NCBI RefSeq assembly: GCF_003008515.1
Contig: NZ_CP027668.1
Span: 4,257,001 to 4,321,000, forward strand
Origin: Phreatobacter cathodiphilus
GTDB taxonomy: Bacteria; Pseudomonadota; Alphaproteobacteria; Rhizobiales; Phreatobacteraceae
Length of the DNA: 64,000 nucleotides
Direction of reading: 5' to 3'
Position numbers and translations under genes: made by a program. Below are positions 5,200 through 28,414 of this stretch, one piece after another (within the stretch, counting starts at the first letter, position 1; every line of letters starts with the position of its first letter). The notes beneath the pieces were generated by a model, which saw nothing but the letters and a program-made list of their open reading frames with translations, ran no database searches and was not told where the DNA came from.

Positions 5200-6780
5200 T
5201 TGTCCGTCAAGCGTCTCGCGCCTGTCGACGTCGTCGTGGTCGGAGCCGGCCTCGGTGCCGCGGCCTTCACCCGCCACCTGGTCGAGGAAGCCCCGGCCCT
5301 CTCCGTCGTCGTGCTGGAGCGCGGCGGCTGGGTGGACCGCGCGGCGCTTCCGGCCTTCCGCGCCGATTTCCAGCGCGACGTCCTCGGCCCCTACGCCACC
5401 TCGCCCAACGTGCGTCTCGCCGCGGGCGGCATCGCCCCCTCCGCCGACTACGCCGTCGACGACAGCCAGTCCGACTTCAAGCCGCTGATGTGGAGCGGCG
5501 TCGGCGGCTCCACCATCAACTGGGCGGCGCATTTCCCCCGCTTCCACCCCTCCGACTTCCGCACCCGCAGCCTCGACGGCGTCGGTGACGACTGGCCCTT
5601 CACCTATGCCGACCTCGAGCCCTTCTACGACCTCAACGACGCGCGCTTCGGCATCGCGGGGCTGCCCGGCGATCCCGCCTATCCGCCGAAGCCGGCGCGC
5701 CCCATGCCGCCCATCGCCCTCGGGCGGCTCGGCATGACGGCGGCGCGCGGCTTCGACCGCCTCGGCTGGCACTGGTGGCCGGTGGATTCCGCCATCAACA
5801 GCCGCGAGCACGCCGGCCGTCCCGGCTGCAACCATTGCGGCCCCTGCCAGCAGGGCTGCGTCACCGGCGCCAAGGCCTCCACCGACATGACCCACTGGCC
5901 CGAGGCCATCGCCCGCGGCGTCGAGATGCGCACGGGCGCGGTGGTGCTGCAGGTGGAGATCGAGGCGGGGCGCGTCACCGGCGTTACCTACCGCACGGCG
6001 GAGGGCGATCTCTTCCAGCCGGCGGCGACGGTGGTGGTCGCCGGCAACGGCGTCGGCACGGCGCGCCTGCTGCTCGCCTCCGGCGTCACCTCGCCGGCGC
6101 TCGGCCGCAACCTCATGTATCACGGCGCCGGGTACGTCCGCGGCTTCTTCGCCGAGGATCTCGACGGTCCCGTCGGGCCCACCGGCTGCGCCATCTACAG
6201 CCACGAGTTCTACGAGACCGACCGCTCCCGCGGCTTCGTGCGTGGCGTCCATCTGCAGGCGACGCGCGAAAATCCGCTCGCCGTGCAGGCGGCCCGCCTG
6301 CCCCGGCCCTGGGGTGAGGAGGCCCATGCGGCGTTGCTGCGCGAGTTCCGGCATTCCATGGCCATCCTCGTCGTCAACGAGGACCTGCCCGAGCCGGAGA
6401 ACCACGTCGGCCTCACCGGCGAGACGGCGCCCGACGGCCTCCCCGGCGTGAAGGTCGTCTATCGCCTCTCCGACCATTCGCGCCGCGCGCTCGACTTCGG
6501 CCTCGACCGCGCCGAGGAGATGCTGCGCGCGGCCGGCGCCGTCGAGACGGTGCGCGTGCCGCTCGCCCCCTTCACCGGCTGGCACCTTCTCGGCACCGCG
6601 CGCATGGGCACCGACCCCGCCACCTCCGTCACCGACGGCAGCGGCCGCGTCCACGGCGTCAGCGGGCTTCTCGTCGCAGACGGCAGCCTCTTCACCACCT
6701 CGGCGGCGGTCAATCCCGGCTCCACCATCGGTGCGCTGGCGACCAAGGTCGCCGACGATTTCGCGAGGCTCGTCGCATGA
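5200..6780 (+). CDS. GMC-type FAD dehydrogenase with a 3Fe-4S-like cysteine motif
   Basis: The 526-residue product begins with an FAD-binding Rossmann motif (VVVVGAGLGAAA, residues 11-22) and ends with a GMC_oxred_C domain (GWHLLGTARMG and the terminal LFTTSAAVNPGSTIGA). The insert CNHCGPCQQGC places cysteines at 210, 213, 216 and 220; C210, C216 and C220 match the spacing of the 3Fe-4S ligands I recall for bacterial FAD-glucose dehydrogenase. It therefore probably oxidises an alcohol or sugar and passes electrons through the cluster. I chose a TTG start because GGGGAGGAAG sits six bases before it and no ATG or GTG near the Rossmann fold has a site. It overlaps the next gene by 4 bases, indicating a two-gene operon. 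No signal peptide is visible. Confidence 0.87.
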   Translation: MSVKRLAPVDVVVVGAGLGAAAFTRHLVEEAPALSVVVLERGGWVDRAALPAFRADFQRDVLGPYATSPNVRLAAGGIAPSADYAVDDSQSDFKPLMWSGVGGSTINWAAHFPRFHPSDFRTRSLDGVGDDWPFTYADLEPFYDLNDARFGIAGLPGDPAYPPKPARPMPPIALGRLGMTAARGFDRLGWHWWPVDSAINSREHAGRPGCNHCGPCQQGCVTGAKASTDMTHWPEAIARGVEMRTGAVVLQVEIEAGRVTGVTYRTAEGDLFQPAATVVVAGNGVGTARLLLASGVTSPALGRNLMYHGAGYVRGFFAEDLDGPVGPTGCAIYSHEFYETDRSRGFVRGVHLQATRENPLAVQAARLPRPWGEEAHAALLREFRHSMAILVVNEDLPEPENHVGLTGETAPDGLPGVKVVYRLSDHSRRALDFGLDRAEEMLRAAGAVETVRVPLAPFTGWHLLGTARMGTDPATSVTDGSGRVHGVSGLLVADGSLFTTSAAVNPGSTIGALATKVADDFARLVA

Positions 6781-7190
6781 CCGCGACCTTCGAAGACGCC
6801 GTTCTCGACACGCTCTTCCCCGGCCTCGGGGCGATCCCGCCGGCGAGCCGCGCCGGCCTCGACGTCGCCTCCGTGATGGCGCGCCACGGCGGCGTGCTGG
6901 ACGCGATCGCCGCCACCGCCGGCGGACGCGAGGCCTTCGCCGCGGCGGATCCCGGGCGGCGCGCGCATCTGCTCGCCGAGGCCGAGCGCGCCACGCCCGC
7001 GCCCGTCCAGGCGCTCGTCCTCGCCGTCTCGGCGCTCTATCACGCCAGCGCTCCCGTCGTGGAAGCCTATGGCTGGGTCTCCCGGCCGCCGCAGCCGCAG
7101 GGCTTCGCGGTCGGCGCGCCCGGCGACGAGGCCGAGGCGGACCGCATGCTGGAGCGGGTCAGGGCGCGGCGGCAGATCTGGCGCGGCTGA
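6777..7190 (+). CDS. Small helical partner of the GMC dehydrogenase, hypothetical
   Basis: The 137-residue protein starts in an ATGA overlap with the dehydrogenase stop, so the two are translationally coupled. It is Ala/Arg-rich and mostly helical, with YHASAPVVEAYGW near residues 89-101. By position and size it may be the counterpart of the small (gamma, subunit 3) chain found with gluconate and glucose dehydrogenases of this class, but unlike those it shows no Tat signal peptide. The role is inferred from context, not from sequence similarity I can see. Confidence 0.75.
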   Translation: MTATFEDAVLDTLFPGLGAIPPASRAGLDVASVMARHGGVLDAIAATAGGREAFAAADPGRRAHLLAEAERATPAPVQALVLAVSALYHASAPVVEAYGWVSRPPQPQGFAVGAPGDEAEADRMLERVRARRQIWRG

Positions 7191-7194
7191 GCCC

Positions 7195-8307
7195 TCAGTC
7201 CGAGGCGTCGAAGCGGCCCATGAAGCTGCGGTCGAGCCAGTCCTTCCACAGCCAGACCCAGCGCCCTTCGAGCGCGAGCCAGCGGCCGCGGCCGGCCACC
7301 GCACCGCCGTCGCCCGTCGACAGGATGGCGAGATAGCGCGTCTGGGCGCGGTAGGGGCGCAGCGCCGCGCCGCGCACCCGCCGCCTGAGGTTTTCGACCA
7401 GCGGCGGTCCCTGTCGCACCGCGAAGACGCCGGCCTTCTCGCGCCGCTGTCCGTCGATCGCCGCACAATCCCCAACCGCGAAGATCGCCGGGTCCGAGAG
7501 GGTGGCGAGCGTGTCCGCCGTCAGCACCGAGCCGTCCTCCGCCCGCCGCAGCCCGGTGGAGGCCAGCCAGTTGGGCGCCCGCGCCGCTGTCGAGACGATG
7601 ACGAGCTCGGCGGCGATCCGCCGGCCGTCGGAGGCGGTCGCGCCGTCGGCGTCCACCGACGCGATCCGGCAGGGTTCGAGCACGGTCACCCCACGGCGCG
7701 CGAGCGCCGCCCGGATGCGCCGCCGCATGCCGGCATTGAGGCCGGGCGCCAGCGCCTCACCCGCGGCGATGCCGATCCAGGGCCGTGGCTCCCGCGCCGC
7801 GAGGCGGGTGCGCAGCGCAAGGGCGATCTCGATGCCGGCCGGGCCGCCGCCGACCATCAGGATGCGGTTGGGCTTCCCTTCGCCGGCGAGGCGCGCGTCG
7901 AGCTGGTCCAGCAGCCCGCCGATCGGCTTCACCGCGAGGGCGTGGCGGTCCGCTCCGTCGATGCCCGTGAGGTCCGGGGTGATGCCGACGTCGAGGGAGA
8001 GCGTGTCGAAGGCGAGGCTTCCGCCGTCGGCGAGCCGCACCGCGCGCCCGTCGCGGTCGATGCCGGTGGCGGCGGCGAGACGGAAGCCGGCGCCGCAGCG
8101 CCGGGCGAGCGCTTCCAGGTCGATATGCATCGCCTCGCGCCGGTAATGGCCGGCGATGTGGCCGGGCAGCATGCCGGAATAGGGCGTGAGCCTGCGGTCG
8201 GTGACGAGGGTCAGCCGCGCGCCGGGCTCGGGCCGGTCGCGGAAGGCGGTGAGCACCTGGACATGGGTGTGGCCGCCGCCGACCAGCACGATGTGATGGT
8301 CAGCCAC
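7195..8307 (-). CDS. FAD/NAD(P)-dependent oxidoreductase of the SelD N-terminal domain type
   Basis: The 370-residue flavoprotein starts with IVLVGGGHTHVQVL and has a second nucleotide-binding site (ILMVGGGPAGIEIALAL, near residue 165) and the FAD-contacting IFAVGDCAAI near residue 292. The GGGHTHVQVL start is typical of the pyridine nucleotide-disulfide oxidoreductase domain often fused to the N-terminus of SelD (TIGR03169); here it stands alone. The GTG start has GGAGG five bases upstream and lies inside the end of the preceding gene (8-base overlap), so it is the last gene of a tight - strand operon. The substrate is unknown; a quinone or sulfur/selenium redox role is conjecture. Confidence 0.8.
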   Translation of the reverse strand: MADHHIVLVGGGHTHVQVLTAFRDRPEPGARLTLVTDRRLTPYSGMLPGHIAGHYRREAMHIDLEALARRCGAGFRLAAATGIDRDGRAVRLADGGSLAFDTLSLDVGITPDLTGIDGADRHALAVKPIGGLLDQLDARLAGEGKPNRILMVGGGPAGIEIALALRTRLAAREPRPWIGIAAGEALAPGLNAGMRRRIRAALARRGVTVLEPCRIASVDADGATASDGRRIAAELVIVSTAARAPNWLASTGLRRAEDGSVLTADTLATLSDPAIFAVGDCAAIDGQRREKAGVFAVRQGPPLVENLRRRVRGAALRPYRAQTRYLAILSTGDGGAVAGRGRWLALEGRWVWLWKDWLDRSFMGRFDASD

Positions 8308-9001
8308 CGGCGCCTCCGTCGAGGCGGGCGAGCGCCGCCCGCGTCGCCGGCGCGGCACCGGGCGCCGCCGCCAGCGCCGCGCGCAGCCAGGCGAGGTCTT
8401 CCGGCTCGTCCACGTCGTGCTGCTCCGGCAGGAGATGGACCGTGAGCCCCTCAGCCCCGGCCCGCCTGAGCGTCTCGGCCAGCACCCCGGCCGTGCTCCA
8501 GGCCATGGGCGCGAAGAGCGGCGCCGCCAGCGCCGAGCGGACGCCGATCAATCCGTAGCCGCCGTCGGCGCTCGGCATGACGACCACGGCTCGCTCCCCG
8601 CCGCGCCGCAGCACCTCCGCCGCCTCGCCGAGAACCGCCGGCGGAACGAGCGGCAGGTCGGCGCCCATCACCATGGCCCCCGCGGGATGGCGCGCCAGGA
8701 GCCGGAAGAGCACGTCCCACATGGTGGCGCCGAGTTCGCCCCTGTCGCAGAAGACCATGGGCCAGTCCTGCCCGACGAGGGCGGCGATCTCGGCCGCCCC
8801 ATCCGCCGGCCGGTAAAACACCTCGCAGCAAAGATCGGCCGGCCCCGCCGCCGCCGCGGCAATGGCCGCCCCGTCCATGAGGAAGGCGGCCGCGAGGTCG
8901 GCCGCCGCCGCGGCGCCGATCGCCGCCGCCAGCCGGGTCTTGGCGATGCCGGGCCGCGGCGGCTTCGCCATCAGCCCGAGGCCGATCGTTCGCTTCGTCA
9001 T
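8300..9001 (-). CDS. TIGR04282-type glycosyltransferase-like protein (DUF2064)
   Basis: The 233-residue protein has a nucleotidyl/glycosyltransferase A fold. It opens with LGLMAKPPRPGIAKTRLA and contains VMGADLPLVPPAVL (the DxD-like region near residue 114) and VVVMPSADGGYGLIGV. This is the family named selenodomain-associated transferase 1, distantly like CofC and MobA. The donor and acceptor are not known. It begins one base after the TVP38 gene ends and overlaps the FAD oxidoreductase gene, so all are one transcription unit. Confidence 0.85.
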   Translation of the reverse strand: MTKRTIGLGLMAKPPRPGIAKTRLAAAIGAAAAADLAAAFLMDGAAIAAAAAGPADLCCEVFYRPADGAAEIAALVGQDWPMVFCDRGELGATMWDVLFRLLARHPAGAMVMGADLPLVPPAVLGEAAEVLRRGGERAVVVMPSADGGYGLIGVRSALAAPLFAPMAWSTAGVLAETLRRAGAEGLTVHLLPEQHDVDEPEDLAWLRAALAAAPGAAPATRAALARLDGGAGG

Positions 9002-9002
9002 G

Positions 9003-9731
9003 TCAGCGCCTCTCCGCGCTCTCGCGCCGCTCCAGCCAGCGGCGCAGCGGGATCGCCGCCAGCGACAGAAGGGCGAGGCCGCCGAGCCCGGCGAGGATCT
9101 CCGGCGTCAGGATCGCGCCCGGCGTGACCGCGCCGCCCCGGTCGAGCACCGACCCGAGGCCGGCTCCCGCCAGCGAGAAGACGGCGGTGGCGGGAATGAC
9201 GCCGACGAAGGTGGTGATGACATAGGTGGCGAGCGGCACACCGACGAAGGCCGGCACGAGGTTGACCAAGAAGAACGGAAAGAGCGGCACCAGCCTGAGC
9301 ACCAGGAGATAGGAGGCGGCGTCGCGGCGGATGCCCGCGGCGAGCCGTGCCGCCTGCGGGCCGAGGCGGTCGAGGGCGTCGGCACCGAACAGCGTCCGCG
9401 CCAGCAGGAAGACCAGGGTCGCGCCGATGGTCGCCGCCGTCACCGTCAGCGCCGTGCCGAGCGCCGCCCCGAACAGGAAGCCGCCGCTCAGCGTCAGGAA
9501 CACCGCGCCGGGGACGGAGAAGGCGACCGCCGCCGTATAGACCGCGACGAAGGCCGCTGCCGCCAGCACCCCGTTGGCCGCCACCCAGGCGGTGAGCGTC
9601 CCCCGGTGGGCGCGCAGGGTCTCCAGCGACAGATAGTCCGCCACCCCCGACCAGCGCAGCCCGACCAGCACCGCGACCGCCGCGAGGGCGATCCAGACGC
9701 GCCGGTCCGTCATGAGAGAGCCGGGCGACAT
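9003..9731 (-). CDS. TVP38/TMEM64 (DedA superfamily-like) membrane protein
   Basis: The 242-residue polytopic inner-membrane protein has five or six hydrophobic segments. It contains the VTT-domain hallmark around FSVPGAVFLTLSGGFLFGAALG (residues 71-92) and RLVPLFPFFLVNLVPAF near residue 146. Related proteins are thought to move lipids or small solutes, but none here is characterised. AGGAGG precedes the ATG. TVP38-domain proteins are often encoded next to, or fused to, MerA-like flavoproteins, as seen with the gene just upstream. Confidence 0.88.
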   Translation of the reverse strand: MSPGSLMTDRRVWIALAAVAVLVGLRWSGVADYLSLETLRAHRGTLTAWVAANGVLAAAAFVAVYTAAVAFSVPGAVFLTLSGGFLFGAALGTALTVTAATIGATLVFLLARTLFGADALDRLGPQAARLAAGIRRDAASYLLVLRLVPLFPFFLVNLVPAFVGVPLATYVITTFVGVIPATAVFSLAGAGLGSVLDRGGAVTPGAILTPEILAGLGGLALLSLAAIPLRRWLERRESAERR

Positions 9732-9740
9732 GGTGCCTCC

Positions 9741-11207
9741 TCAGGGGATGAAGCGTTGCAGGAAGCCGACGACGGCGCGGGTCGTCGGGCCGAAGAGCTT
9801 TTCCGTGAAATGGCTCCCCGCCGCCCGTTTCGAGGCTTCCGACAGGGTCGGATAGGGCAGAACGAGGCCGGCCACGGCGCCGATCTTCAGTCCGGAGGCG
9901 ATCGCCAGCGCCCAGAGGCCGATCATCTCGCCGGCGCGCGGGGCGACGATGGTGGCCCCGAGGATGCGGCCGCGACTGCCGAGGACGACGCGCACGAAGC
10001 CCTCGGTGCGGCGCTCCGCCTGCGCCCGGTCGTTCATGGCGAGGGGCGAGGAGAGGACCTCCACGTGGTGGCCGGCCTTGCGCGCCTCCGCCTCCGTCAG
10101 GCCGACCTGCGCGAGTTCCGGGTCGGTGTAGGTCACCCGTGGCAGTGCGGCGTAGTTCACCTTGGCCGGCAGCAGGAACAGGGCGTTACGGATGACGATG
10201 CCCGCCTGGTAGCCGGCGGCATGGGTGAACTGCGGTCCGCCGCAGACGTCGCCGATGGCGAAGACGGAGCGGTTGCTCGTGCGAAGCCGCGCGTCCACCG
10301 TGATGCCCTTGTCGCTGGCGGCGATGCCGGCGGCGTCGAGGCCGAGGCCCTCGACGTTCGGCCGCCGCCCCGTGGCGACGAGCAGGTGGCTGCCGGTGAT
10401 CGCCGGCCCGCCGTCGGCGAGTTCGAGCGTGACCCCGTCCGCGGTGCGCCGGACGGAGGCGACCTTGCGGCCCTCCATCAGCGCGACGCCGTCGGCGAGC
10501 AGCGCCGCCCGCACCACCGCCACCGCCTCCGGCGCGTCCCGTCCGAGGATGGACTGCTGTTCGATCACGGTGACCTGCGATCCCAGCCGGCGGAAGGCCT
10601 GCGCCATTTCGACGCCGATGGGGCCGCCGCCCATGACGACGAGGTGCTCCGGTCGCGCGCGCAGGCCGAAGATCGTCTCGTTGGTGAGGTGGCCGCTCTC
10701 GGCGAGCCCCGGCACCGGCGGCACGGCGGCGCGCGAGCCCGTCGCCACCACGAAGCGCCGCGCCTGGATCCGCGCGCCGCCCGCCTCCACCGTGCGCGGG
10801 TCGAGGAAGCGTGCCGCGGCGCGGATCACCATGACCCCGAGGCCTTCGAAACGCTCCACGCTGTCGTGCGGTGCGATGGCCGCGATGACGCCGTGGACAT
10901 GGTCGTGGACTGCGTCGAAGCGGATGTCGGGGGCAGGGTACCGGACGCCGAAGGCCGGGCTCGCGGTCGCCGCATGGGCCATGTGGGCGGCGGCGATGAG
11001 CGCCTTCGAGGGCACGCAGCCCGTGTTGAGACAGTCGCCGCCCATCTCGCCCTTCTCGACGAGGACGACCGAGGCGCCCATCTGCACCGCGCCGGCCGCG
11101 ACCGACAGCCCGGCGGAGCCTGCGCCGATGACGCAGATGTCGCAGCGGATCGCGTCGCCGTCGTGGCTCGGGCGCCTCGCGGCGGGGTGGGGGTCGGTCG
11201 TGTCCAT
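9741..11207 (-). CDS. MerA-like pyridine nucleotide-disulfide oxidoreductase
   Basis: The 488-residue flavoprotein of the dihydrolipoamide dehydrogenase/mercuric reductase class has an FAD site ICVIGAGSAGLSVA, a redox disulfide C59-C64 in GGDCLNTGCVPSKA, an NAD(P) site LVVMGGGPIGVEMA, the FAD motif VFAIGDVCGG and a dimerisation domain. It lacks the N-terminal heavy-metal domain and the C-terminal vicinal cysteines of true mercuric reductase, and the usual catalytic HPT is replaced by YPTLSE, so neither mercury reduction nor lipoamide oxidation is supported. I chose the ATG near GAAAGG; an upstream GTG would add 24 residues. It heads the - strand operon, divergent from the radical SAM gene. 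Confidence 0.87.
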   Translation of the reverse strand: MDTTDPHPAARRPSHDGDAIRCDICVIGAGSAGLSVAAGAVQMGASVVLVEKGEMGGDCLNTGCVPSKALIAAAHMAHAATASPAFGVRYPAPDIRFDAVHDHVHGVIAAIAPHDSVERFEGLGVMVIRAAARFLDPRTVEAGGARIQARRFVVATGSRAAVPPVPGLAESGHLTNETIFGLRARPEHLVVMGGGPIGVEMAQAFRRLGSQVTVIEQQSILGRDAPEAVAVVRAALLADGVALMEGRKVASVRRTADGVTLELADGGPAITGSHLLVATGRRPNVEGLGLDAAGIAASDKGITVDARLRTSNRSVFAIGDVCGGPQFTHAAGYQAGIVIRNALFLLPAKVNYAALPRVTYTDPELAQVGLTEAEARKAGHHVEVLSSPLAMNDRAQAERRTEGFVRVVLGSRGRILGATIVAPRAGEMIGLWALAIASGLKIGAVAGLVLPYPTLSEASKRAAGSHFTEKLFGPTTRAVVGFLQRFIP

Positions 11208-11413
11208 CGGCAGTGTGAACCTTTCAGCGGGCGGCTTGTTTCCCTTCGCGGGGGCAGGGCGGACCGTTTCCTCCCCCACACGAACTTGTGTCCGCCGCCG
11301 CCGTCGCCGCCTGTTCCGCGGCGCGCCATGGTGACGGCGACGGCGGCTTCCGGTGTAACGTCTTGCCGCCGGAATGCGAATGCGGACGAAACGCCGCGAG
11401 GGAGTGAAGCCTG
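11208..11413. other. Divergent intergenic region of the redox/radical SAM cluster
   Basis: This 206-base spacer must hold promoters for the MerA-like operon (-) and the radical SAM pair (+). I see no EcfG box and no clear sigma70 pair. The shared sequence GAAGCCTGTTG at its right end carries the TTG start of the radical SAM gene. Confidence 0.4.
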
Positions 11414-12379
11414 TTGCAGCAGACCATGCGAGAGCCCGGCGGCCGGACCATCGGCAAGTTCGAACATCCCGCCGTCACAGCCAAGGGCGAACGCCGCGCC
11501 GCGGTCGCGCTGAAGCGACTGGAGACCCTGTGGTTCAACACCGGCACGCTCTGCAACATCACCTGCGCCAACTGCTACATCGAGAGCTCGCCGAAGAACG
11601 ACGCGCTCGCCTATCTGACCCTCGCCGACGTGCGCGCCTCGCTCGACGAGATCCGCCGCGACGGCCTGCCGGTGACGCTGGTCGGCCTCACCGGCGGCGA
11701 GCCCTTCATGAACCCTCAGATCATCGCCATCCTCGAGGCGGTGCTGGAGGCGGGCCACGAGACCCTCGTGCTCACCAACGCCATGCGGCCGATGATGCGC
11801 CACCGCGCCGCCCTGCTCCGGTTGCGCCAGGCCCATGGCTCCAGACTGCGCATCCGCGTCTCGCTCGACGACTACCGCGCCGCCGTCCATGACGCCGAGC
11901 GTGGCCCCGGCGCCTTTTCCAAGGCCATGGACGGCCTGCGCTTCCTCGCCGGCCACGGCTTCCGGCTGGAGCTCGCCGGACGGCGCCTCGCCGCCGATGC
12001 CGAGGCGGGCTCGCGCGAGGGCTACCGCCGCACCCTCGCGGCGGAGGGCATCGTCCTCGACTGGGACGATCCGGTGAGCCTCGTCGTCTTCCCCGAGATG
12101 CGCGCCGACGCCGATCCGCCGGAGATCACCGAGGCCTGCTGGGGCATCCTCCACAAGAGCCCGGACGAGGTCATGTGCGCCTCCGCTCGCATGGTGGTGC
12201 GCCGCAAGGGGGCGGCGGGGCCCTCCGTCCTCGCCTGCACGCTCATCGCCTACGATCCCGCCTTCGAGCTCGGCGCGACCCTGAAGGAGGCGGCCCGGCC
12301 CGTGACGCTCAACCACCGCTTCTGCGCCACCTTCTGCGTGCTCGGCGGGGCCGCCTGCGGCGCCGCGGCGCCGGCGTGA
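11414..12379 (+). CDS. Radical SAM protein with a cysteine-rich C-terminus
   Basis: The 321-residue protein has the SAM-cleaving cluster motif C47-x3-C51-x2-C54 in TGTLCNITCANCY and the GGE motif in GLTGGEPFMNP (residues 91-101). Six more cysteines (242, 255, 275, 304, 308, 315) in the last third suggest an auxiliary iron-sulfur cluster of SPASM or Twitch type. I took the TTG start because GGAG sits nine bases upstream; an ATG four codons later is the alternative. It overlaps the downstream glycosyltransferase gene by 4 bases (GTGA). With the two small transferases and the SelD-type flavoprotein nearby it fits the 'rSAM/selenodomain' neighbourhood, but the product is not known. Confidence 0.85.
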   Translation: MQQTMREPGGRTIGKFEHPAVTAKGERRAAVALKRLETLWFNTGTLCNITCANCYIESSPKNDALAYLTLADVRASLDEIRRDGLPVTLVGLTGGEPFMNPQIIAILEAVLEAGHETLVLTNAMRPMMRHRAALLRLRQAHGSRLRIRVSLDDYRAAVHDAERGPGAFSKAMDGLRFLAGHGFRLELAGRRLAADAEAGSREGYRRTLAAEGIVLDWDDPVSLVVFPEMRADADPPEITEACWGILHKSPDEVMCASARMVVRRKGAAGPSVLACTLIAYDPAFELGATLKEAARPVTLNHRFCATFCVLGGAACGAAAPA

Positions 12380-13014
12380 CCGTCGCGGTCGAGCACCGGC
12401 GGACGGCGGCCGTCGATCCCCCGGCCTTCAGCGTCGTCGTGCCGCTGGCGGCGGACGAGCCTCCCCCTGAAGGCCTGATCGCGAGCCTGCCGGACGACAT
12501 GGAGGTCATCCTCGCCCGCGGCGGCAGCCGCGCCGAAGCCCTCAATGCCGGCGCCGTGGCGGCGCGCGCCGCCGTCCTCTGGTTCGTCCATGCCGACACG
12601 CGCCTCCCCGAGGGCGCGATCGAGGCCCTGCGCGCCGCCGTCCGCCGCGAGCCCGGGGCCCTGCTCTTCTTCGACCTCATCTTCGACGGCCCGGCCGTCA
12701 TGGCCCTGAACGGCGCCGGCGCCCGCCTGCGCTCGCGTCTCTTCGGCCTGCCCTTCGGCGACCAGGCCCTGTGCCTCGACGCCGCGCTCTTCCGCCGGCT
12801 CGGCGGCTATCCCGCCGTGGCGCGCGGCGAGGACCACCTCCTCGTCTGGCGCGCCCACCGCGCCGGCGTGCCGGTGCGGCCCGTGGGGGCGAGCGTCACC
12901 ACCAGCAGCCGCCGCTACCGGGCCCGCGGCTGGGCCCGCACTACCGCGCTCCACCTCGCACTCACCCTGCGCCAGGCGGCGCCGGAAGTCCTCGCCTGGC
13001 TCAGGGGACGCTGA
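12376..13014 (+). CDS. TIGR04283-type glycosyltransferase family 2 protein
   Basis: The 212-residue GT-A protein contains FSVVVPLAADEP, the acceptor-side AEALNAGAVAARAAVLWFVHADTRLPE with a D-x-x-like metal region (HADT, near residue 75), and FGDQALCLDAALFRRLGGYP followed by EDHLLVWRAHRAG. This matches the family called selenodomain-associated transferase 2, also seen with arsenosugar genes. The GTG start overlaps the radical SAM stop, so the two are translated together. A longer in-frame extension upstream was rejected because it lies inside the radical SAM gene. Confidence 0.83.
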   Translation: MTVAVEHRRTAAVDPPAFSVVVPLAADEPPPEGLIASLPDDMEVILARGGSRAEALNAGAVAARAAVLWFVHADTRLPEGAIEALRAAVRREPGALLFFDLIFDGPAVMALNGAGARLRSRLFGLPFGDQALCLDAALFRRLGGYPAVARGEDHLLVWRAHRAGVPVRPVGASVTTSSRRYRARGWARTTALHLALTLRQAAPEVLAWLRGR

Positions 13015-13114
13015 CCCCTTGTGGTATCGGGCGCCGGTTGCCGCGCCCCGCGCCGGCGGCGTAGGCCTGTCGCTGGTCCCGAGGGATCGCCCCCACCTGC
13101 GAGAAGGGTTCGTC

Positions 13115-15529
<2,415 letters not shown>

Positions 15530-15535
15530 GCCGGC

Positions 15536-17587
<2,052 letters not shown>

Positions 17588-17637
17588 GGGGGTTCTTGAA
17601 ACTCTCGCGCGCAGGCGATCTGCACGTTCTGGCCAGC

Positions 17638-17662
17638 AACGCGACGGTCCCGAGGGGGTTCC
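17638..17662 (-). promoter_or_regulatory. EcfG-type promoter of glgX
   Basis: On the - strand it reads GGAAC, 16 bases, CGTT, a perfect match to the general stress sigma consensus. It is placed to give a leader of about 45 bases on glgX. Confidence 0.75.
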
Positions 17663-17704
17663 CGCGGGCGCCGGGGAGGGCCCCATCTTTTTTGCGGTGC
17701 AATA

Positions 17705-17730
17705 GGAACTTCGTCACTCGCCCTGTCGTT
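17705..17730 (+). promoter_or_regulatory. EcfG-type promoter of glgA
   Basis: GGAAC, 17 bases, CGTT, a perfect match. The -10 element ends 38 bases before the glgA ATG. With the glgX promoter it makes a divergent, doubly EcfG-controlled intergenic region. Confidence 0.75.
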
Positions 17731-17768
17731 GTAGCCATGACGTCCCCCGTAGATCCCGCGAGCGTGCC

Positions 17769-19304
17769 ATGCAGGTCTTCGAGCGCCCTTCTGAAGAGCC
17801 TCTGACTACCGACGGCCCGACGCTCCTTCCCGAGGCTCTCGCCTCGCCGGAGGAGCGCGTCGAGGCACCTCCCGCCCTCGGCGGCCGGCGGCCGAACGTT
17901 CTCTTCGTCACCCCCGAAATGGGCGACTTCATCAAGGCCGGCGGTCTTGGCGAGGTTTCCGCCTCCCTGCCGCGCCAGCTCACCCGCCTCTGCGACGTCC
18001 GCGTGCTCATGCCCGGCTACCGAGAGGTGCGCCGCAAGGGCGGGCACATCGACGTCGTCAGGTCCATGCCCGGCTTCGCCGGCCTTCCCGCCTGGTCGCT
18101 GGGACGGCTGACACGGCCTGACGGTCTCATCGTCTATGTCGTCCTCTGCGACGAGCTCTACGACCGGGCCGGCTCCCCCTACGGCCCCTTCGGCGCCGGC
18201 GACTTCGCCGACAACGACGTGCGTTTCGCGCGCCTGTCTTTGGCCGCCGCCGAGGTCGCGGCGGGCGAGGCCGACCCCAACTGGAAGGCCGACATCCTCC
18301 ACGCCCACGACTGGCCGGCGGCTCTCGCCCCGCTCTATCTCGCCACGCGCCCCGGCCGGGACAAGCCCGCCTCCATCCTCACCATCCACAATCTCGCCTA
18401 TCAGGGTCTCTACGGCGCCGACCGTCTGCAGGCGCTCGGCATCCCCGACTCCGCCTTCACCGTGGAGGGCGCCGAGTTCTACGGCCAGCTCTCCTTCCTC
18501 AAGGCCGGCATCGCCTTCTCGACCCACATCACCACGGTCAGCGAGACCTACGCCCGCGAGATCACCTCGCCGGAGCACGGCTGCGGCCTCGACGGCATGC
18601 TGCGCCGTCGCTACGCCGCCGGCGAACTCACCGGCATCCTCAATGGCATCGACGACCGCATGGTCATGCCGCCGGACCAGGCCCTCGACCCGCGTGCGCT
18701 CGGCGACTGGAAGCGCGCCAACGCCCGCAAGGTCCGCAAGATCTTCGGCCTGACGCCGTCGAAGGGCCCGCTCTTCGCGGTCATCTCCCGCCTCGTCCAC
18801 CAGAAGGGCGTCGACCTCGCGGTGGAGGCGGCCGAGACGATCATCGCCGGCGGCGGCCAGCTCGTCGTCACCGGTCGCGGCGAGCCCGAGCTCGAGGAGG
18901 CGGTGGAGCGGCTCGGCGAGCGCCATCCGGACGCCGTGGGCGTCCATATCGGCTTCGACGACGAGGAGGCGCGGCAGGTCTTCGCCGGCAGCGACTTCCT
19001 GCTCATGCCCTCCCGCTTCGAGCCCTGCGGCCTCAGCCAGATGTATGCGCAGCGCGCCGGCAGCCTGCCCATCGCCTACCGCACCGGCGGCCTCGCCGAC
19101 ACCATCGACGACGGCCGCTCGGGCTTCCTCTTCTCGAGCCTGTCCTCGTCCAGCCTCGGCGGCGCGGTGAACCGGGCGCTGGGCGCCTATCGTCGTCGCG
19201 CCGACCTCATCGCCATGCGCCGCAACGCCATCGCCAAGCGCTTCGACTGGACCGGTGCGACGGCCCGCTACGCCACCATCTACTCACGCGCGCTGGAGGT
19301 CTGA
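17769..19304 (+). CDS. glgA: Glycogen synthase (ADP-glucose type, GT5)
   Basis: The 511-residue enzyme adds glucose from ADP-glucose to alpha-1,4 chains. The donor-binding K-x-G-G-L motif is at K56 (IKAGGLGEV). The C-terminal GT-B domain has RLVHQKGVDL and the acid FEPCGLSQMYAQRAGSLPI followed by RTGGLADTI. An extra 40 or so residues precede the usual start (RPNVLFVTPE); this leader is low-complexity and may be real, because the ATG sits at the right distance from the EcfG promoter. glgC, which makes ADP-glucose, is not in the window. Confidence 0.95.
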   Translation: MQVFERPSEEPLTTDGPTLLPEALASPEERVEAPPALGGRRPNVLFVTPEMGDFIKAGGLGEVSASLPRQLTRLCDVRVLMPGYREVRRKGGHIDVVRSMPGFAGLPAWSLGRLTRPDGLIVYVVLCDELYDRAGSPYGPFGAGDFADNDVRFARLSLAAAEVAAGEADPNWKADILHAHDWPAALAPLYLATRPGRDKPASILTIHNLAYQGLYGADRLQALGIPDSAFTVEGAEFYGQLSFLKAGIAFSTHITTVSETYAREITSPEHGCGLDGMLRRRYAAGELTGILNGIDDRMVMPPDQALDPRALGDWKRANARKVRKIFGLTPSKGPLFAVISRLVHQKGVDLAVEAAETIIAGGGQLVVTGRGEPELEEAVERLGERHPDAVGVHIGFDDEEARQVFAGSDFLLMPSRFEPCGLSQMYAQRAGSLPIAYRTGGLADTIDDGRSGFLFSSLSSSSLGGAVNRALGAYRRRADLIAMRRNAIAKRFDWTGATARYATIYSRALEV

Positions 19305-19324
19305 TCCCCCTTGGCGGTCCCGGT

Positions 19325-19627
19325 TCACGGCTCCTCGCGCTTGCGCCGTCCCGGTGCCTTCCGGGGCGCCGCGGCGGGAGTCTTGCCGTCGGCCGCCTGT
19401 GACGGCGCCGCGGCGCCGCGCGGAGCCCGGACCTTGGCGGCGGGCTTCCCGAGGACGGCGGTTCCCCTCTCAAGGGCCGTTTCGCTCCCCCTGTCGGCAG
19501 TGGACGCCGGCGGCGTCGCCGTCACTTCCCGTTCGGCGGCCTGCCAATGGGCCTCGGCCCGACCGGTCGGTCGGCCCTCCGCTTCCCAGATCTCATAGGC
19601 TCGCTTCTCGATCATCATGCGCGACAT
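19325..19627 (-). CDS. DUF2934 small protein
   Basis: The 100-residue protein carries the DUF2934 core ([21 protein letters not shown], residues 8-28; key residues Y10, W13, E16, G17, H27, W28) followed by a disordered Ala/Pro/Lys/Arg-rich tail ending [11 protein letters not shown]2934 proteins are small, of unknown function, and common beside glgX/treY-type genes in alphaproteobacteria. AAGGAGG precedes the ATG. It is encoded opposite to glgA and glgB and sits exactly between them. The basic tail could bind nucleic acid, but that is only a guess. Confidence 0.8.
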
Positions 19628-19735
19628 CCGCCGCCTCCTTTTCCATCTCGCCGCGCCGCCCCCGAAGGCGGCCGTGCGGCTCCCGTTCAACAATGCGCCC
19701 CGCCGTGCCGGGTTTCCTCGGTGGGGGATCGCGCC

Positions 19736-21961
19736 GTGGTGATCCGCCGCTCCACCCCGCGCGCCAGCGAGACCGTCGCCGCTCCCGGCTCGAGCCTGCC
19801 GGCGGGCGTGGTCTCCGCCCTCCTCGCCGGCACCCACGGCGACCCCTTCTCCGTCCTCGGCCCCCACCGGGAGGGAACGGGCCTGCGCATCCGCGCCGCG
19901 CTGCCCGGCGCCTATTATGCGGAAGTGGAGCCCGCCGGCGGTGGTCCCACGACACCGCTCACGGAAACGTCGCCGGGTTTTTTCGAGGCCCTCCTCGCCG
20001 AGCCCATCGACTATCGCCTCGTGGTCCACTGGGCCGGCGCCGTGCAGCGCACCGTCGATCCCTACGGCCTGCCGGCCCTGCTCTCCAGCGACGACCTCCA
20101 CTGGTTCGCCGAGGGCCGCCACCGCGACCTCGCCCAGCGCATAGGCGCCGTGCCCTGCCGCCATGCCGGCCACGAGGGCGTCGCCTTCGCCGTCTGGGCC
20201 CCCAATGCCCGCGCCGTCTCGGTGGTCGGCGACTTCAACGGCTGGAACCCGGCCCGTCACCCCATGCGCCGGCGATGGGAGGCGGGCGTCTGGGAGCTGT
20301 TCATCCCCGGCCTCGCGCCGGGCGCGACCTACAAGTTCGCCATCACCGGCCCCTCCGGCGAGCGCCTGCCCTGGAAGGCCGACCCGCTGGCGCGGCGCAC
20401 CGAGACGCCGCCCCGCACCGCCTCCGTCGTCGCCCCGCCGCCGCGCTTCGCCTGGACCGACGGCGAGTGGATGGCCGCCCGCGCCGAGCGCGACGACAGC
20501 CGCCGCCCGATGGCGATCTACGAGGTTCACCTCGGGTCCTGGCTGCGCAGCCACGAGGGCCACGAGGGAAGCTGGGCCGAGGCCGCCGATCGGCTGATCC
20601 CCTATCTCCAGCATCTCGGCTTCACCCATGTCGAGCTGATGCCGATCGCCGAATATCCGTTCGGCGGCTCATGGGGCTATCAGCCGCTGTCGCTCTTCGC
20701 CCCCACCGCACGGCTCGGCGATCCGGCCGACCTGGCGCGGTTCGTCGACCGCTGCCACGCTGCCGGCATCGGCGTCATCCTCGACTGGGTGCCGGCGCAC
20801 TTTCCCGGCGACGAGCACGGCCTCGCCCGCTTCGACGGCACGGCGCTCTACGAGCACGAGGACCCGCGCGAGGGCTATCACCCCGACTGGAACACGATGA
20901 TCTACAACCTGGGGCGCCGCGAGGTCCGCGGCTTCCTCATGGCCTCGGCGCTCTGGTGGATCCGCACCTTCCACCTCGACGGCCTGCGCGTCGACGCCGT
21001 CGCTTCCATGCTCTACCGCGACTACAGCCGCCAGCCGGGCGAATGGATTCCCAACGTCCATGGCGGCCGCGAGAATCTCGAGGCCGTCTCCTTCCTGCGC
21101 GAGCTCAACGACCTCGTCGATGCCGAAGGCAACGGCGCCGTCGTGATCGCCGAGGAATCCACCGCCTGGCCCGGCGTCACCGCGCCGACGGACGAGGGCG
21201 GGCTCGGCTTCCATTTCAAGTGGAACATGGGCTGGATGCACGACACGCTGCGCTATTTCGGGCGTGACCCGATCCACCGGCACCACCACCCGAACGACCT
21301 CACCTTCGGCCTCGTTTATGCCCATTCCGAGCATTACGTCCTGCCGATCTCCCATGACGAGGTCGTGCACGGGAAAGGCTCGCTCATCGCCCGCATGCCC
21401 GGCGACGACTGGCAGCGCTTTGCCAACCTGAGGCTCTTCCTCGGCTGGATGTGGGCCCATCCCGGCAAGAAGCTGCTCTTCATGGGCTGCGAGTTCGGTG
21501 CCGAGGCCGAGTGGAACGCCGATGCGCCCTTCCCCTGGCCGGCGGAGGACGCCGTGCTGCCGCGCGGCGTGATGCGGCTCATCGGCGACCTCAACCGCGT
21601 CTATCGCGACACCCCCGCCCTCCACCGGCGCGACCGCGAGCCGGACGGCTTCCGCTGGATCATCGCCGACGACCGCGACAACCAGGTCTTCGCCTTCTTC
21701 CGCAGCGACGGCACCGACGAGGTGCTCGTCATCGCCAACATGACGCCCGTGCCGCGACTCGGCTATCGGGTCGGCGTGCCGCGGCCCGGCCTCTGGCGCG
21801 AGCTCGTCAACAGCGACGCGGCGATCTACGGCGGCTCCGGCCTCGGCAACGGCGGAGGCGTCGAGGCCGACCCCGAGCCTTCGCACGGCGAAGCCTGTTC
21901 CCTGAGCCTCACCCTGCCGCCGCTCGGCATCCTGATCCTCGCGCCCGAAGGACGCGGCTGA
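19736..21961 (+). CDS. glgB: 1,4-alpha-glucan branching enzyme
   Basis: The 741-residue GH13 enzyme makes alpha-1,6 branches in glycogen. It has two N-terminal CBM48-type modules (about 20-120 and 145-235, the second with [10 protein letters not shown]), then the barrel with nucleophile D420 ([12 protein letters not shown]), E473 (VIAEESTAW) and the third carboxylate in [11 protein letters not shown]. The length is normal for the two-module form. I took the first of two tandem GTG codons; a GGGGG run lies upstream, and another GTG five codons earlier is possible. malQ starts two bases after its stop, so the two form an operon. Confidence 0.94.
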
Positions 21962-21962
21962 C

Positions 21963-23996
21963 ATGCACGACGAGGCCCTCAGGGAACTGGCCCGGCGCTC
22001 CGGCATCGCGCTCGACTGGCGCGACCAGCGCGGCGAGACCCGGATCGTCTCGCCCGAGACGTTGCGCGCCATTCTCGCCGCCATGGACGTCGGGCCGGAG
22101 GACGCGGTCCCCGGCGCCGCCGGCTCGCCTGAGGCGGATCGTCCCCTGCTCACCGCCCGTGCCGGCCGGCGGGTGGACCTCGCGGCGGCTGGCTTTGCCG
22201 AAGGCGCGCTGGAACTGGAGGACGGGGACGGGGCCGGCTCCGCCGTGCAGTCGTCCGGCGACGGCACGGGGCTCTCGTTCGTGGCGCCCGACAGGCCCGG
22301 CTACTACCGGCTGCACCAGGCCGGCCGCACGGCCACACTCGCCGTGGCGCCGCAGCGAAGCCCCACCATCACGGAGCGGCTCGGCGGACGCGGCTGGGCC
22401 CTGGCCTCGCAGATCTACTCCCTGCGGTCGCGCCACGACGGCGGCATCGGCAATTTCGGCGGCGTCGCGGCTCTCGGCGCCGTGGCGGGTGAGCGCGGCG
22501 CGGACGCGATCGCCGTCAGCCCGACCCACGCCCTGTTCGGCGCGGCGCCGGGCCATTTCAGCCCCTATTCGCCCTCGACGCGCCTCTTCGCCAACCCGCT
22601 GCACGCCGATCCGGTCCTCGTCCTCGGCGAGGCGGCGGTCTCCGCGGCGATCGCCGCCGCCGGCCTCGACGCCGACATGGCGGCGCTCGAACGGGCGCCG
22701 ACCGTGCACTGGGAGGCCGCGACGCCCGCCCGCCGCGCGCTCCTCGCGGCGCTGCATCGGAGGCTCCTCGCCTCGGGCGACGGGCTCGCCGCCGATTTCG
22801 CCGCCTATCGCGCCGCGGCGCCGCAAGCCCTGATCGACCACGCCACCTTCGAGGTGCTGCATGAGGGCCTGCTGCGCGAGGAGTCCGGCCGCTGGCACTG
22901 GAACGGATGGCCCGACGGCCTCCGCGAGGCGTCGTCTCCCGCCGTCGCGGCCTTCCGCAGCGAGAACGCGGAGGCCGTCGACCGGCAGATCTTCGCCCAG
23001 TGGCTGGCCGAGCGGTCGCAGGCGGCGGCGCAGGCCTGCTGCCGCGACGCCGGCATGCGCATCGGCATCATCGCCGATCTCGCCATCGGCGTGGAGAGCG
23101 CCGGCAGCCAGTGCTGGAGCCGCCCGTCCGACATGCTCACCGGGCTCGGCATCGGCGCGCCGCCGGACTACTACGCCGCAGAGGGTCAGAACTGGGGACT
23201 GACGACCTTCTCGCCGCTCGGCCTCGCCCGCAGCGGCTATGCCGGCTTCATCGCCATGCTGAGGGCGAGCCTCGCCCATGCCGGGGGCCTGCGCATCGAC
23301 CACGTGATGGGCTTCGCGCGGTTGTGGATGGTGCCGGAAGGCGCCTCCGCCACCGAAGGCGCCTATCTCGCCATGCCTTCGGAGGACCTCTTCTGCCTCA
23401 CCGCCCTCGAGGCCTCCCGCCACGACGCCGTGGTCATCGGCGAGGACCTCGGCACGCTGCCTCACGGCTATCGCGAGAAGCTCCAGGCCGAGGGGGTCGC
23501 CGGCATGCGCGTGCTGCGTTTCGAGCGCGACGACCACGGCCACCGCCATCCCTCCAACTGGGACAGCGACGCCGTCGCCATGACCTCTACCCACGACATG
23601 ATCGCCACGGCCGGCTGGTGGCGCGGCGCCGACCTCGCGGCGGACGACCTGGCCGCCCAGGAGCGCCGCGCCTGGGACCGCGGCCTGTTCTGGGGATCGG
23701 CCGAGGAGGCGGGACTTGTAACGGGGCCGCGCCCGGCTCCTGAGGAGCCCGAGGCGGCGGTCGACGCCGCCATCGCCTATGTGGCGGAGACACCCTCGGC
23801 GCTCGCCGTCATCGCGGTGGAGGACCTGCTCGGCCTCGACGTGCAGCCGAACGTGCCCGGCACCACGGCGGAGAAGCCGAACTGGCGTCACCGCTTGCCG
23901 GGACCGGCCGCGAGCCTCCTCGACGATGCCGCCGCCGGCCGCCGCATCCGGCTCCTGCAGCAGCGGCGCGGGTCACGCCCGCGCGATGTTCCATAG
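21963..23996 (+). CDS. malQ: 4-alpha-glucanotransferase (amylomaltase)
   Basis: The 677-residue GH77 enzyme transfers maltosyl or longer units between alpha-1,4-glucans. Catalytic residues sit in GLRIDHVMGFARL (nucleophile Asp), VVIGEDLGTLP (acid/base Glu) and TSTHDMIATAGWW (Asp). The N-terminal 130 residues are the extra module of bacterial MalQ. It starts just after the glgB stop and converges on treZ, whose end overlaps its own by 24 bases, leaving no room for a terminator between them. Confidence 0.94.
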   Translation: MHDEALRELARRSGIALDWRDQRGETRIVSPETLRAILAAMDVGPEDAVPGAAGSPEADRPLLTARAGRRVDLAAAGFAEGALELEDGDGAGSAVQSSGDGTGLSFVAPDRPGYYRLHQAGRTATLAVAPQRSPTITERLGGRGWALASQIYSLRSRHDGGIGNFGGVAALGAVAGERGADAIAVSPTHALFGAAPGHFSPYSPSTRLFANPLHADPVLVLGEAAVSAAIAAAGLDADMAALERAPTVHWEAATPARRALLAALHRRLLASGDGLAADFAAYRAAAPQALIDHATFEVLHEGLLREESGRWHWNGWPDGLREASSPAVAAFRSENAEAVDRQIFAQWLAERSQAAAQACCRDAGMRIGIIADLAIGVESAGSQCWSRPSDMLTGLGIGAPPDYYAAEGQNWGLTTFSPLGLARSGYAGFIAMLRASLAHAGGLRIDHVMGFARLWMVPEGASATEGAYLAMPSEDLFCLTALEASRHDAVVIGEDLGTLPHGYREKLQAEGVAGMRVLRFERDDHGHRHPSNWDSDAVAMTSTHDMIATAGWWRGADLAADDLAAQERRAWDRGLFWGSAEEAGLVTGPRPAPEEPEAAVDAAIAYVAETPSALAVIAVEDLLGLDVQPNVPGTTAEKPNWRHRLPGPAASLLDDAAAGRRIRLLQQRRGSRPRDVP

Positions 23997-25720
23997 CGCC
24001 GTCCAGGGGCCGAGCCGCCCCTCCGACCAACCCGGTCCTTCCGACCACAGCACGTCGCCGGCCGGCGCGGCGGGGTGCGGACGATCTTGCGCCGACAGGT
24101 TGAGAAGCAGCGACAGGCGGCTCTGCCCGCTTGGCCAGGTGACCGCGACGGCGCCGCTCTCGGTCACCTCCCCGTCGCCAGCGCCCATGTCCTGAAGCAG
24201 CGGCACGACCCGCTCGCGCCGCGCCGCGAGGATGCCGCGATACCAGGCGAGCGTCTCCGCATGGGGCGGCCGCTGGAGCTCCGCCCAGTCCAGCTTCGAG
24301 GCGAGGAAGGTCTCCCGCGCCGTGGGGTCCGGAATGGCGGCGCGGCGCTCCGGGTCGGCGAAGGCGGAGAACCGCCGGAATTCGGCGCGCCGGCCGTCCC
24401 GCACCGCGTCCTTCAGGTCGTCGCCGAGGTCGCAGAAGAACTGGAACGGCGCGCTCGTCCCCCATTCCTCGCCCTGGAACAGCATCGGGATCTGCGGGCA
24501 GAGGAGGAAGGCCGCGGTGGCGGCGCGCACCGCCGCGGGGTCCGCACCGTGGGCGATGCGGTCGCCGAAGGCGCGGTTGCCGACCTGGTCGTGGTTCTGC
24601 AGGAAGGCGACGAAGGCGGTCGGCGACAGGTCGCGGCAGGGCGCGCCGCGCGCCGAGCCGCGATAGGGCATGGTCTCGCCCTGGAAGGCGAAGCCCTCCG
24701 CCAGAGCGCGTGCCAGCCGGTCCGAACGGCCCGCATAGTCGCTGTAATAGCCCTCGTCCTCGCCGGTCACCGCCACGTGCAGGCCGTGATGGAGGTCGTC
24801 GTTCCACTGGGCCCGATAGTCGCGGCGAAGCCAGGCCGGTTCGTTGTCCTCGTTCTCGACGATCAGGTGCAGCGGCCGCGTGGCCGGCAGCCGGGCCGCC
24901 GCGGCGGCGATCTCGGCGAGGATATGGTTGGGGCTGTCGTCGCGGATCTCGTGCACCGCGTCGAGCCGCAGGCCGTCGAAGCCGTAGTCTTCCAGCCAGA
25001 ACAGCGCGTTCTCCACCGCGAAGGCGCGCACCTCGTCGCGTCCTTCGGCGTCGAAATTGACCGCCGCGCCCCACGGCGTCTCGTGGGCCTCGTTGAAGAG
25101 CGGCGCGTAGAGGGGCAGATAGTTCCCCTCCGGTCCGAAGTGGTTGTAGACGACGTCCAGCAGAACCGCGATGCCGAGGTCGTGGGCCGCGTCCACCAGG
25201 GCCCGCAGATCCTCCGGCCGGCCGTAGCTCGCCGCCGGCGCGAAGGGCAGCACCCCGTCGTAACCCCAGTTCCGGTCGCCCGGAAAGGCCGCCACCGGCA
25301 TGATCTCGATGGCGGTGACGCCGAGGTCCGCCAGATGCGGCAGGCGGCCCATCGCCGCGCGGAACGTGCCTTCCGGCGTGAAGGTGCCGACGTGGAGCTC
25401 ATAGAGCACCACCTCTTCCCATGGCCGGCCGCACCAGGCCGTCGCCGGGGGCGGCAGGGGCGCCACGACCTCGCTCGGCCCGTGCACGCCCTCCGGCTGG
25501 AAGCGGCTGGCCGGGTCCGGCACCTTCAATCCGTCCGGCAGGACGAAGCGGTAGCGGCTGCCGGGGCCGGCGGGATGCTGGAGCCTGTGCCAGCCGTCCG
25601 CCGTGCGGGTCATCGGCCCGGCGTCCGCCCCGTCCACCTCCAGCCCGATCACCTCCGCCTTCGGCGCCCAGAGCCGGAACAGCGTGCCCCCGGGCGTCAC
25701 CGCGGGACCGAAACGCCGCG

Positions 25721-25724
<4 letters not shown>
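23973..25724 (-). CDS. treZ: Malto-oligosyltrehalose trehalohydrolase
   Basis: The 583-residue GH13 enzyme releases trehalose from maltooligosyl-trehalose made by TreY. It has an N-terminal E-set domain (about 1-90), then the barrel with DVVYNHFGPEGNY, nucleophile D255 (DGLRLDAVHEI), E290 (LIVENEDNE) and Asp in FLQNHDQVGNRA. The ATG overlaps the treY stop (ATGA), so the pair is translationally coupled, as is usual for the TreYZ route that turns glycogen-type glucan into trehalose under stress. Confidence 0.95.

Positions 25725-28414
<2,690 letters not shown>

Follow-up and report, generated by a model that had tools for sequence, protein, structure and literature searches.

In the biosynthesis of oxo-arsenosugars, the adenosylation of arsenic is assigned to a radical S-adenosylmethionine (SAM) enzyme in the available part of PMC12159101, which cites Cheng 2021. 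Loci of this ArsM/ArsS pathway have one radical SAM slot together with the transferase families TIGR04282 and TIGR04283, and many of them also carry genes for TVP38, a MerA-like protein, a phosphate transporter and an extracytoplasmic function (ECF) sigma factor. The same companions are encountered at loci in which the slot is filled, instead of ArsS, by a radical SAM protein from an unnamed family, which we call rSAM-X. One such locus lies in a stretch of 64,000 nucleotides (the window) of the genome of Phreatobacter cathodiphilus, a single contig of 4.49 Mb that is G000 in the counts below. Six genes at 7195-13014, four on the minus and two on the plus strand, form a divergent cluster there (Table 1). 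With modest confidence, we propose that this cluster, which resembles the later half of a pathway for an unusual sugar, holds the core of an arsenosugar-type pathway with rSAM-X in the place of ArsS, in which the steps would follow the order set out below.

The distribution of the genes defines this core. Among 249 genomes of the order Hyphomicrobiales, rSAM-X was found in 87 (E<=5e-25, a threshold that retained 87 of the 141 genomes with any match), TIGR04283 in 91 (E<=1e-15) and TIGR04282 in 88 (E<=1e-12). rSAM-X and TIGR04283 occurred together in 80 genomes; seven had only rSAM-X, 11 only TIGR04283 and 151 neither (Fisher P 4e-44, kinship ignored). Several of the discordant genomes are incomplete (G131, 56%; G151, 61%; G204, 71%; G209, 74%), others are not. 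The radical SAM gene, TIGR04282 and TIGR04283 were all present in 78 genomes and are a conserved core whose recurrence is beyond chance. They are mostly unlinked: TIGR04283 was seen in four of 40 fetched rSAM-X stretches (12-19 kb), three of the four being from the genus of the window. Out of 40 fetched TIGR04283 loci, the gene caller found TIGR04283 in 30, and TIGR04282 followed it directly in 14 of these. The caller is simple and misses genes, so that all locus counts given here are approximate; the rSAM-X gene of L077, for example, was missed by it and entered by hand after a tblastn match. In the counts of loci, ArsM, 5'-methylthioadenosine (MTA) phosphorylase and MerA are labels for similarity clusters, of which example members alone were checked against family models. 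A preliminary description of the window, made from its sequence alone, had read the tight linkage as one pathway that should recur in other genomes. The six genes do not recur as six; what holds of that claim is that the radical SAM protein and the two transferases belong together, since these three co-occur strongly, at mostly separate sites. At many Hyphomicrobiales loci (L165-L204, e.g. L178), TIGR04283, often with TIGR04282, lies at a conserved site beside genes that we take, by eye, for a PA0069-like radical SAM protein, RNase HII, a CcrM-like methylase and MutY.

ArsS and rSAM-X were never found together in the samples. ArsS (TIGR04167) over its cut-off was absent from all 249 genomes of the order. 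In a sample of 239 genomes of the phylum, which overlaps slightly with the order sample, 118 had TIGR04283; ArsS accompanied it in 92, rSAM-X in 15, both in none and neither in 11. Altogether, rSAM-X was counted in 16 genomes of this sample, 15 of them with TIGR04283, after G177 and G199 (127 bits) had been dropped from an initial 18, and ArsS in 100 (98 over the cut-off and two below), eight of which were without TIGR04283. The same was seen at the level of loci: among the best 80 of 116 loci that matched the TIGR04283 of the window, plus the window itself, 43 had ArsS, 26 rSAM-X, 12 neither and none both. In a quick tree of TIGR04283, at least five changes of partner between ArsS and rSAM-X were counted, the unlinked Hyphomicrobiales sequences being left out of this count. 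Apparently, the same transferases serve either radical enzyme. That rSAM-X occupies the slot of ArsS, and replaces it in an arsenosugar-type pathway, is on balance the somewhat favoured explanation as a whole. In any case, a family without a name that alternates with ArsS is carried by 87 of the 249 sampled genomes of the order.

The rSAM-X protein of the window has a PF04055 (Radical_SAM) match of 53.1 bits (cut-off 29.5) and a CxxxCxxC motif and is a member of the radical SAM superfamily. No NCBIfam model reached its cut-off. The best one, NF049973 for Rv1681 family radical SAM proteins, gave 92.4 bits against 380 over residues 38-213 only, and an assignment as an Rv1681-type enzyme failed on this score; assignment as ArsS was rejected likewise (65.3 bits to TIGR04167, 65.4 in the genome search, cut-off 300), which places rSAM-X in another radical SAM family than the enzyme of the ArsM/ArsS pathway. 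C43, C47 and C50 are invariant in 45 aligned sequences, as are C238, C271, C304 and C311 towards the C terminus, with C251 and C300 almost invariant; similar C-terminal cysteines were seen in 14 ArsS sequences. By eye the spacing resembles that of SPASM/twitch domains, of which no Pfam domain matched. The predicted model (predicted local distance difference test, pLDDT, 92.6) has BlsE and SkfB as nearest structures at modest TM-scores of about 0.6. The family divides into two subfamilies with a mutual identity of roughly 30-36%, one with the protein of the window and the other in Marinobacterium, Emcibacter and relatives. In searches of open-licence papers, none of those listed was recognised as a description of this family. 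At L038 (G003, 8586-9501) the radical SAM gene matches in two pieces, possibly owing to a frameshift or an assembly error close to its end.

Of the two transferases, the TIGR04282 protein of the window is just below the cut-off of its best-matching family (133.5 bits against 134), and the TIGR04283 protein is below that of its only family match (131.6 against 182) and retains conserved glycosyltransferase-like residues. Both families are currently named 'arsenosugar biosynthesis glycosyltransferase' by NCBIfam. For TIGR04282 the predicted model (pLDDT 95.6) has as its nearest chain 3cgx, a solved relative titled 'putative nucleotide-diphospho-sugar transferase', followed by 3-phosphoglycerate guanylyltransferase and Rv2983/FbiD. 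KxR, DxP, DGG and DxD residues are invariant in 36 aligned sequences and are shared, like the predicted fold, with the CofC/FbiD guanylyltransferases; the score to the F420_cofC model was 36.2 bits (cut-off 105). The CofC-type fold of the model and the conserved acidic residues point to a nucleotidyltransferase, and activation of a sugar-1-phosphate would fit fold and invariant residues better than glycosyl transfer. This supports a function as nucleotidyltransferase and not as the glycosyltransferase of the NCBIfam name. A connection to FbiD has been made before, a TIGR04282 gene being termed fbiD in the available part of PMC8801600. In G199 and G177 (L244 and L245), a TIGR04282 relative is clustered with a different radical SAM protein and an apparent glycosyltransferase family 2 (GT2) enzyme, possibly another pathway that uses this nucleotidyltransferase family. 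The radical SAM gene near TIGR04282 there was rejected, the fetched loci having proved to hold a different cluster; TIGR04283 was not found in either genome at E<=1e-15.

A clue to the order of the steps comes from linked genes. In the 25 loci with a called rSAM-X gene, the next gene was MTA phosphorylase in 12, TIGR04283 in 11 and another gene in two. MTA phosphorylase is linked more often to rSAM-X (12 of 26 loci) than to ArsS (3 of 43), which is a difference from the ArsM/ArsS pathway. The position of a phosphorylase between radical enzyme and transferases points to a 5'-substituted adenosine as the product of the radical step, which would then be split to a 5-substituted ribose-1-phosphate. 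From this we infer the following sequence. rSAM-X would first place a 5'-deoxyadenosyl moiety on a small acceptor, X, and an enzyme of the MTA phosphorylase type would free adenine to give 5-deoxy-5-X-ribose-1-phosphate. This could be activated with a nucleoside triphosphate by the TIGR04282 protein, and the TIGR04283 protein would move the modified ribose onto an acceptor, giving a 5-deoxy-5-X-ribose glycoside. Accessory membrane and redox parts would be supplied by TVP38 with the MerA-like protein and, as a separate contribution, by the TIGR03169 flavoprotein. Such a scheme gives a concrete enzyme order for what follows arsenic adenosylation, that is, phosphorolysis, nucleotide activation and glycosyl transfer, and the later steps of arsenosugar synthesis, which are poorly known, could become testable.

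The acceptor X is probably dimethylarsenic. ArsM was enriched with rSAM-X in the order sample, being present in 39 of 87 genomes with rSAM-X and in 7 of 162 without; the 46 genomes counted exclude two of 48 with matches (G039, E 2.6e-16; G141, 1.4e-17). An arsenic context is seen at L124 of Emcibacter, where a run of genes encodes a methyltransferase, ArsM-like and ArsC-like proteins, a phosphate transporter, TVP38, a MerA-like protein and an ECF sigma factor and continues with TIGR04282, rSAM-X, MTA phosphorylase and TIGR04283. Its MTA phosphorylase passes the cut-off (293.7 bits, 274.85 required); the TIGR04282 and TIGR04283 proteins are below theirs (116.1 of 134 and 178.4 of 182 bits). An ArsM-like gene is also found in the rSAM-X loci L112 and L131, and in L228 and L229 it lies 1.6 kb from an rSAM-X gene whose product is 57-60% identical to that of the window. 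The preliminary description had left the product between a sulfur, selenium or arsenic-containing sugar or lipid; of these, arsenic is favoured by the linkage in some other genomes. ECF sigma factors stand inside the cassettes of L124 and L137, in the latter with an NrsF-type gene, which hints at regulated expression.

Several observations weigh against an arsenosugar-type pathway with rSAM-X in the place of ArsS. The non-overlap of the two radical enzymes is partly a matter of phylogeny, since few families dominate the phylum sample, and the samples are not independent, most ArsS genomes coming from few families. The alignment of rSAM-X with the ArsS profile is confined to the radical SAM core (177 columns). 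Six of the 12 rSAM-X loci with MTA phosphorylase are from Emcibacter, and the cluster of the window is without this gene, its absence being established for the cluster and the rest of the genome not having been searched for it. At L124 the ArsM-like and ArsC-like proteins are below the NCBIfam cut-offs (172.7 of 263 and 64.2 of 174.3 bits). Unlike the ArsM/ArsS pathway, rSAM-X loci are usually without ArsM: it was present in 3 of 26 rSAM-X loci of the named set as compared to 34 of 43 ArsS loci, and in none of 40 rSAM-X loci fetched from the order. The preliminary description had named arsM as a gene to look for; no match at E<=1e-15 was found in the genome of the window (8 of 23 first-look candidates scored), nor was ArsS over its cut-off. 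Where a genome carries rSAM-X together with TIGR04283, ArsM is present in only 37 of 80 cases and was not found in 43, and on a quick tree of 63 rSAM-X sequences, 39 with an ArsM label, its presence changes at least eight times, of which well-supported branches force three.

The same ArsM data bear on an alternative in which the enzymatic logic is kept and X is not arsenic but sulfur, phosphorus, selenium or carbon, so that many Hyphomicrobiales would make an ArsM-independent 5-modified ribose glycoside. That ArsM was not found in the genome of the window, its rarity at rSAM-X loci, its absence from more than half of the genomes with both core genes and its many changes on the tree speak for this alternative; the enrichment of ArsM in rSAM-X genomes and the ArsM-like genes of L112, L124, L131, L228 and L229 speak against it. 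Methylated arsenic could also be taken up from outside the cell. We regard a non-arsenic X as possible but rather doubtful. Equally tentative is the wider idea that rSAM-X links 5'-deoxyadenosine to a non-arsenic acceptor through a C-X bond and so feeds a common, hitherto undescribed 5-deoxy-5-X-ribose glycoside of many Hyphomicrobiales, arsenosugar synthesis being a single branch within a wider class of heteroatom sugars made by radical enzymes. What follows depends on the acceptor: if it is arsenic, arsenosugars could be made by many bacteria of the order despite their lack of ArsS, and if it is not, there would be modified sugars of a new class.

Among the products of the remaining genes, the TIGR03169 flavoprotein (395.6 bits, cut-off 310) and TVP38 with its VTT domain (63.9 bits, cut-off 33.9) are members of their families. 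As mercuric reductase (TIGR02053) the MerA-like protein was rejected, with 387.1 of 454.45 bits and a translation that is without the C-terminal cysteine pair, a hallmark of MerA. Within the genus of the window, 4 of 12 genomes have the radical SAM gene. G003 has the arrangement of the window, and G008 and G010 carry the pairs flavoprotein-TIGR04282 and radical SAM-TIGR04283, with TVP38 and the MerA-like gene not at the locus; G002 and G009 have flavoprotein-TVP38-MerA with no core gene there, and no radical SAM gene of this family was detected in either genome. G006 has flavoprotein-TIGR04282 at a contig end and may be a fifth carrier in the genus. By this comparison the six genes are two modules and not one unit, and a single six-gene pathway, as first described, is rejected.

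Two unrelated modules, a flavoprotein-TVP38-MerA operon and an rSAM-X/TIGR04282/TIGR04283 pathway, could have come to adjoin by rearrangement, which would be compatible with our explanation of the core three. The gene sets of G002 and G009 and of G008 and G010 fit such an origin. On the other side, MerA-like genes are present in 25 of the 43 loci with ArsS and in 12 of the 26 with rSAM-X, with the reservation that this similarity cluster may contain unrelated MerA genes; 22 of its 43 members exceed 650 amino acids, as a TVP38 fusion would, and a version of this length occurs in 20 ArsS loci. These counts suggest that a TVP38-MerA pair frequently accompanies both ArsS and rSAM-X loci. The flavoprotein is linked more weakly, being seen in 6 of 26 rSAM-X loci (four from the genus of the window) and 1 of 43 ArsS loci. 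We consider an adjacency of unrelated modules rather unlikely. A fusion of TVP38 (COG0398 DedA) to a pyridine nucleotide-disulfide oxidoreductase is reported in the available part of PMC10127716; it joins the domains that are encoded by adjacent genes in the window, but is tied there to aerobic metabolism and not to arsenosugar loci.

A selenium-containing sugar or lipid, one of the options of the preliminary description, is very improbable. The name of TIGR03169 refers to a position N-terminal to SelD, and a genus relative (G001, L227) has a 708-aa TIGR03169-like protein that has the size of a TIGR03169-SelD fusion and is 47% identical to the flavoprotein of the window. Against a selenium product stands that no selD over the cut-off was found anywhere in the genome of the window, as had been noted for the cluster from the start: the best TIGR00476 match reached 70.7 of 125 bits, and this protein reads as ThiL by eye. 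With SelD absent there is no known source of selenophosphate, and the selenium route was rejected for this genome.

The strands, overlaps and gaps of the six genes are as first described; their ends were refined, with alternative starts for TVP38 and rSAM-X. The flavoprotein and TIGR04282 genes overlap by 8 bases, a single base separates TIGR04282 from TVP38, and the gap between TVP38 and the MerA-like gene is 9 or 27 bases, depending on the TVP38 start. The rSAM-X and TIGR04283 genes overlap by 4 bases. The divergent gap is 206 bases from the TTG at 11414 or 218 bases from the ATG at 11426.

Table 1 Features of the rSAM-X locus and its flank (positions in the window).
Feature	Position	Strand	Basis
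GMC oxidoreductase and small 137-aa gene, flanking	5236-7190	+	adjoin cluster in G003, G008, G010
TIGR03169 flavoprotein, SelD-associated type, stand-alone, NDH-2-like	7195-8307	-	family models, genus comparison
TIGR04282 protein, predicted nucleotidyltransferase, CofC/FbiD fold	8300-9001	-	TIGR04282 and DUF2064 matches; predicted model
TVP38/DedA (VTT) membrane protein	9003-9731, start 9713 or 9731	-	PF09335, 63.9 bits
MerA-like FAD disulfide oxidoreductase, CxxxxC, C terminus without cysteine pair	9741-11207	-	family matches, translation
Divergent intergenic region	11208-11425		gene ends
Radical SAM protein, unnamed family (rSAM-X), 317 aa from ATG	11426-12379, TTG start at 11414 possible	+	CxxxCxxC and C-terminal cysteines
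TIGR04283-type GT2-like glycosyltransferase	12376-13014	+	TIGR04283 as only family match; conserved residues; co-occurrence

The GMC oxidoreductase and the 137-aa gene are probably flank and not part of the pathway. Simple scans of 7000-13200 gave no sigma-70 promoters or terminators, and the divergent region 11208-11425 has neither a sigma-70 match nor an EcfG-like box. Six copies of GGAAC-N16-18-CGTT, presumably an EcfG-like stress-promoter box, are present in the window (842, 2582, 3421, 17638, 17705 and 51235; 0.82 expected), none of them inside the cluster. Downstream of the cluster, at 13115-28414, there appears to be a gene block of the glycogen/trehalose type, as judged from translations read by eye.

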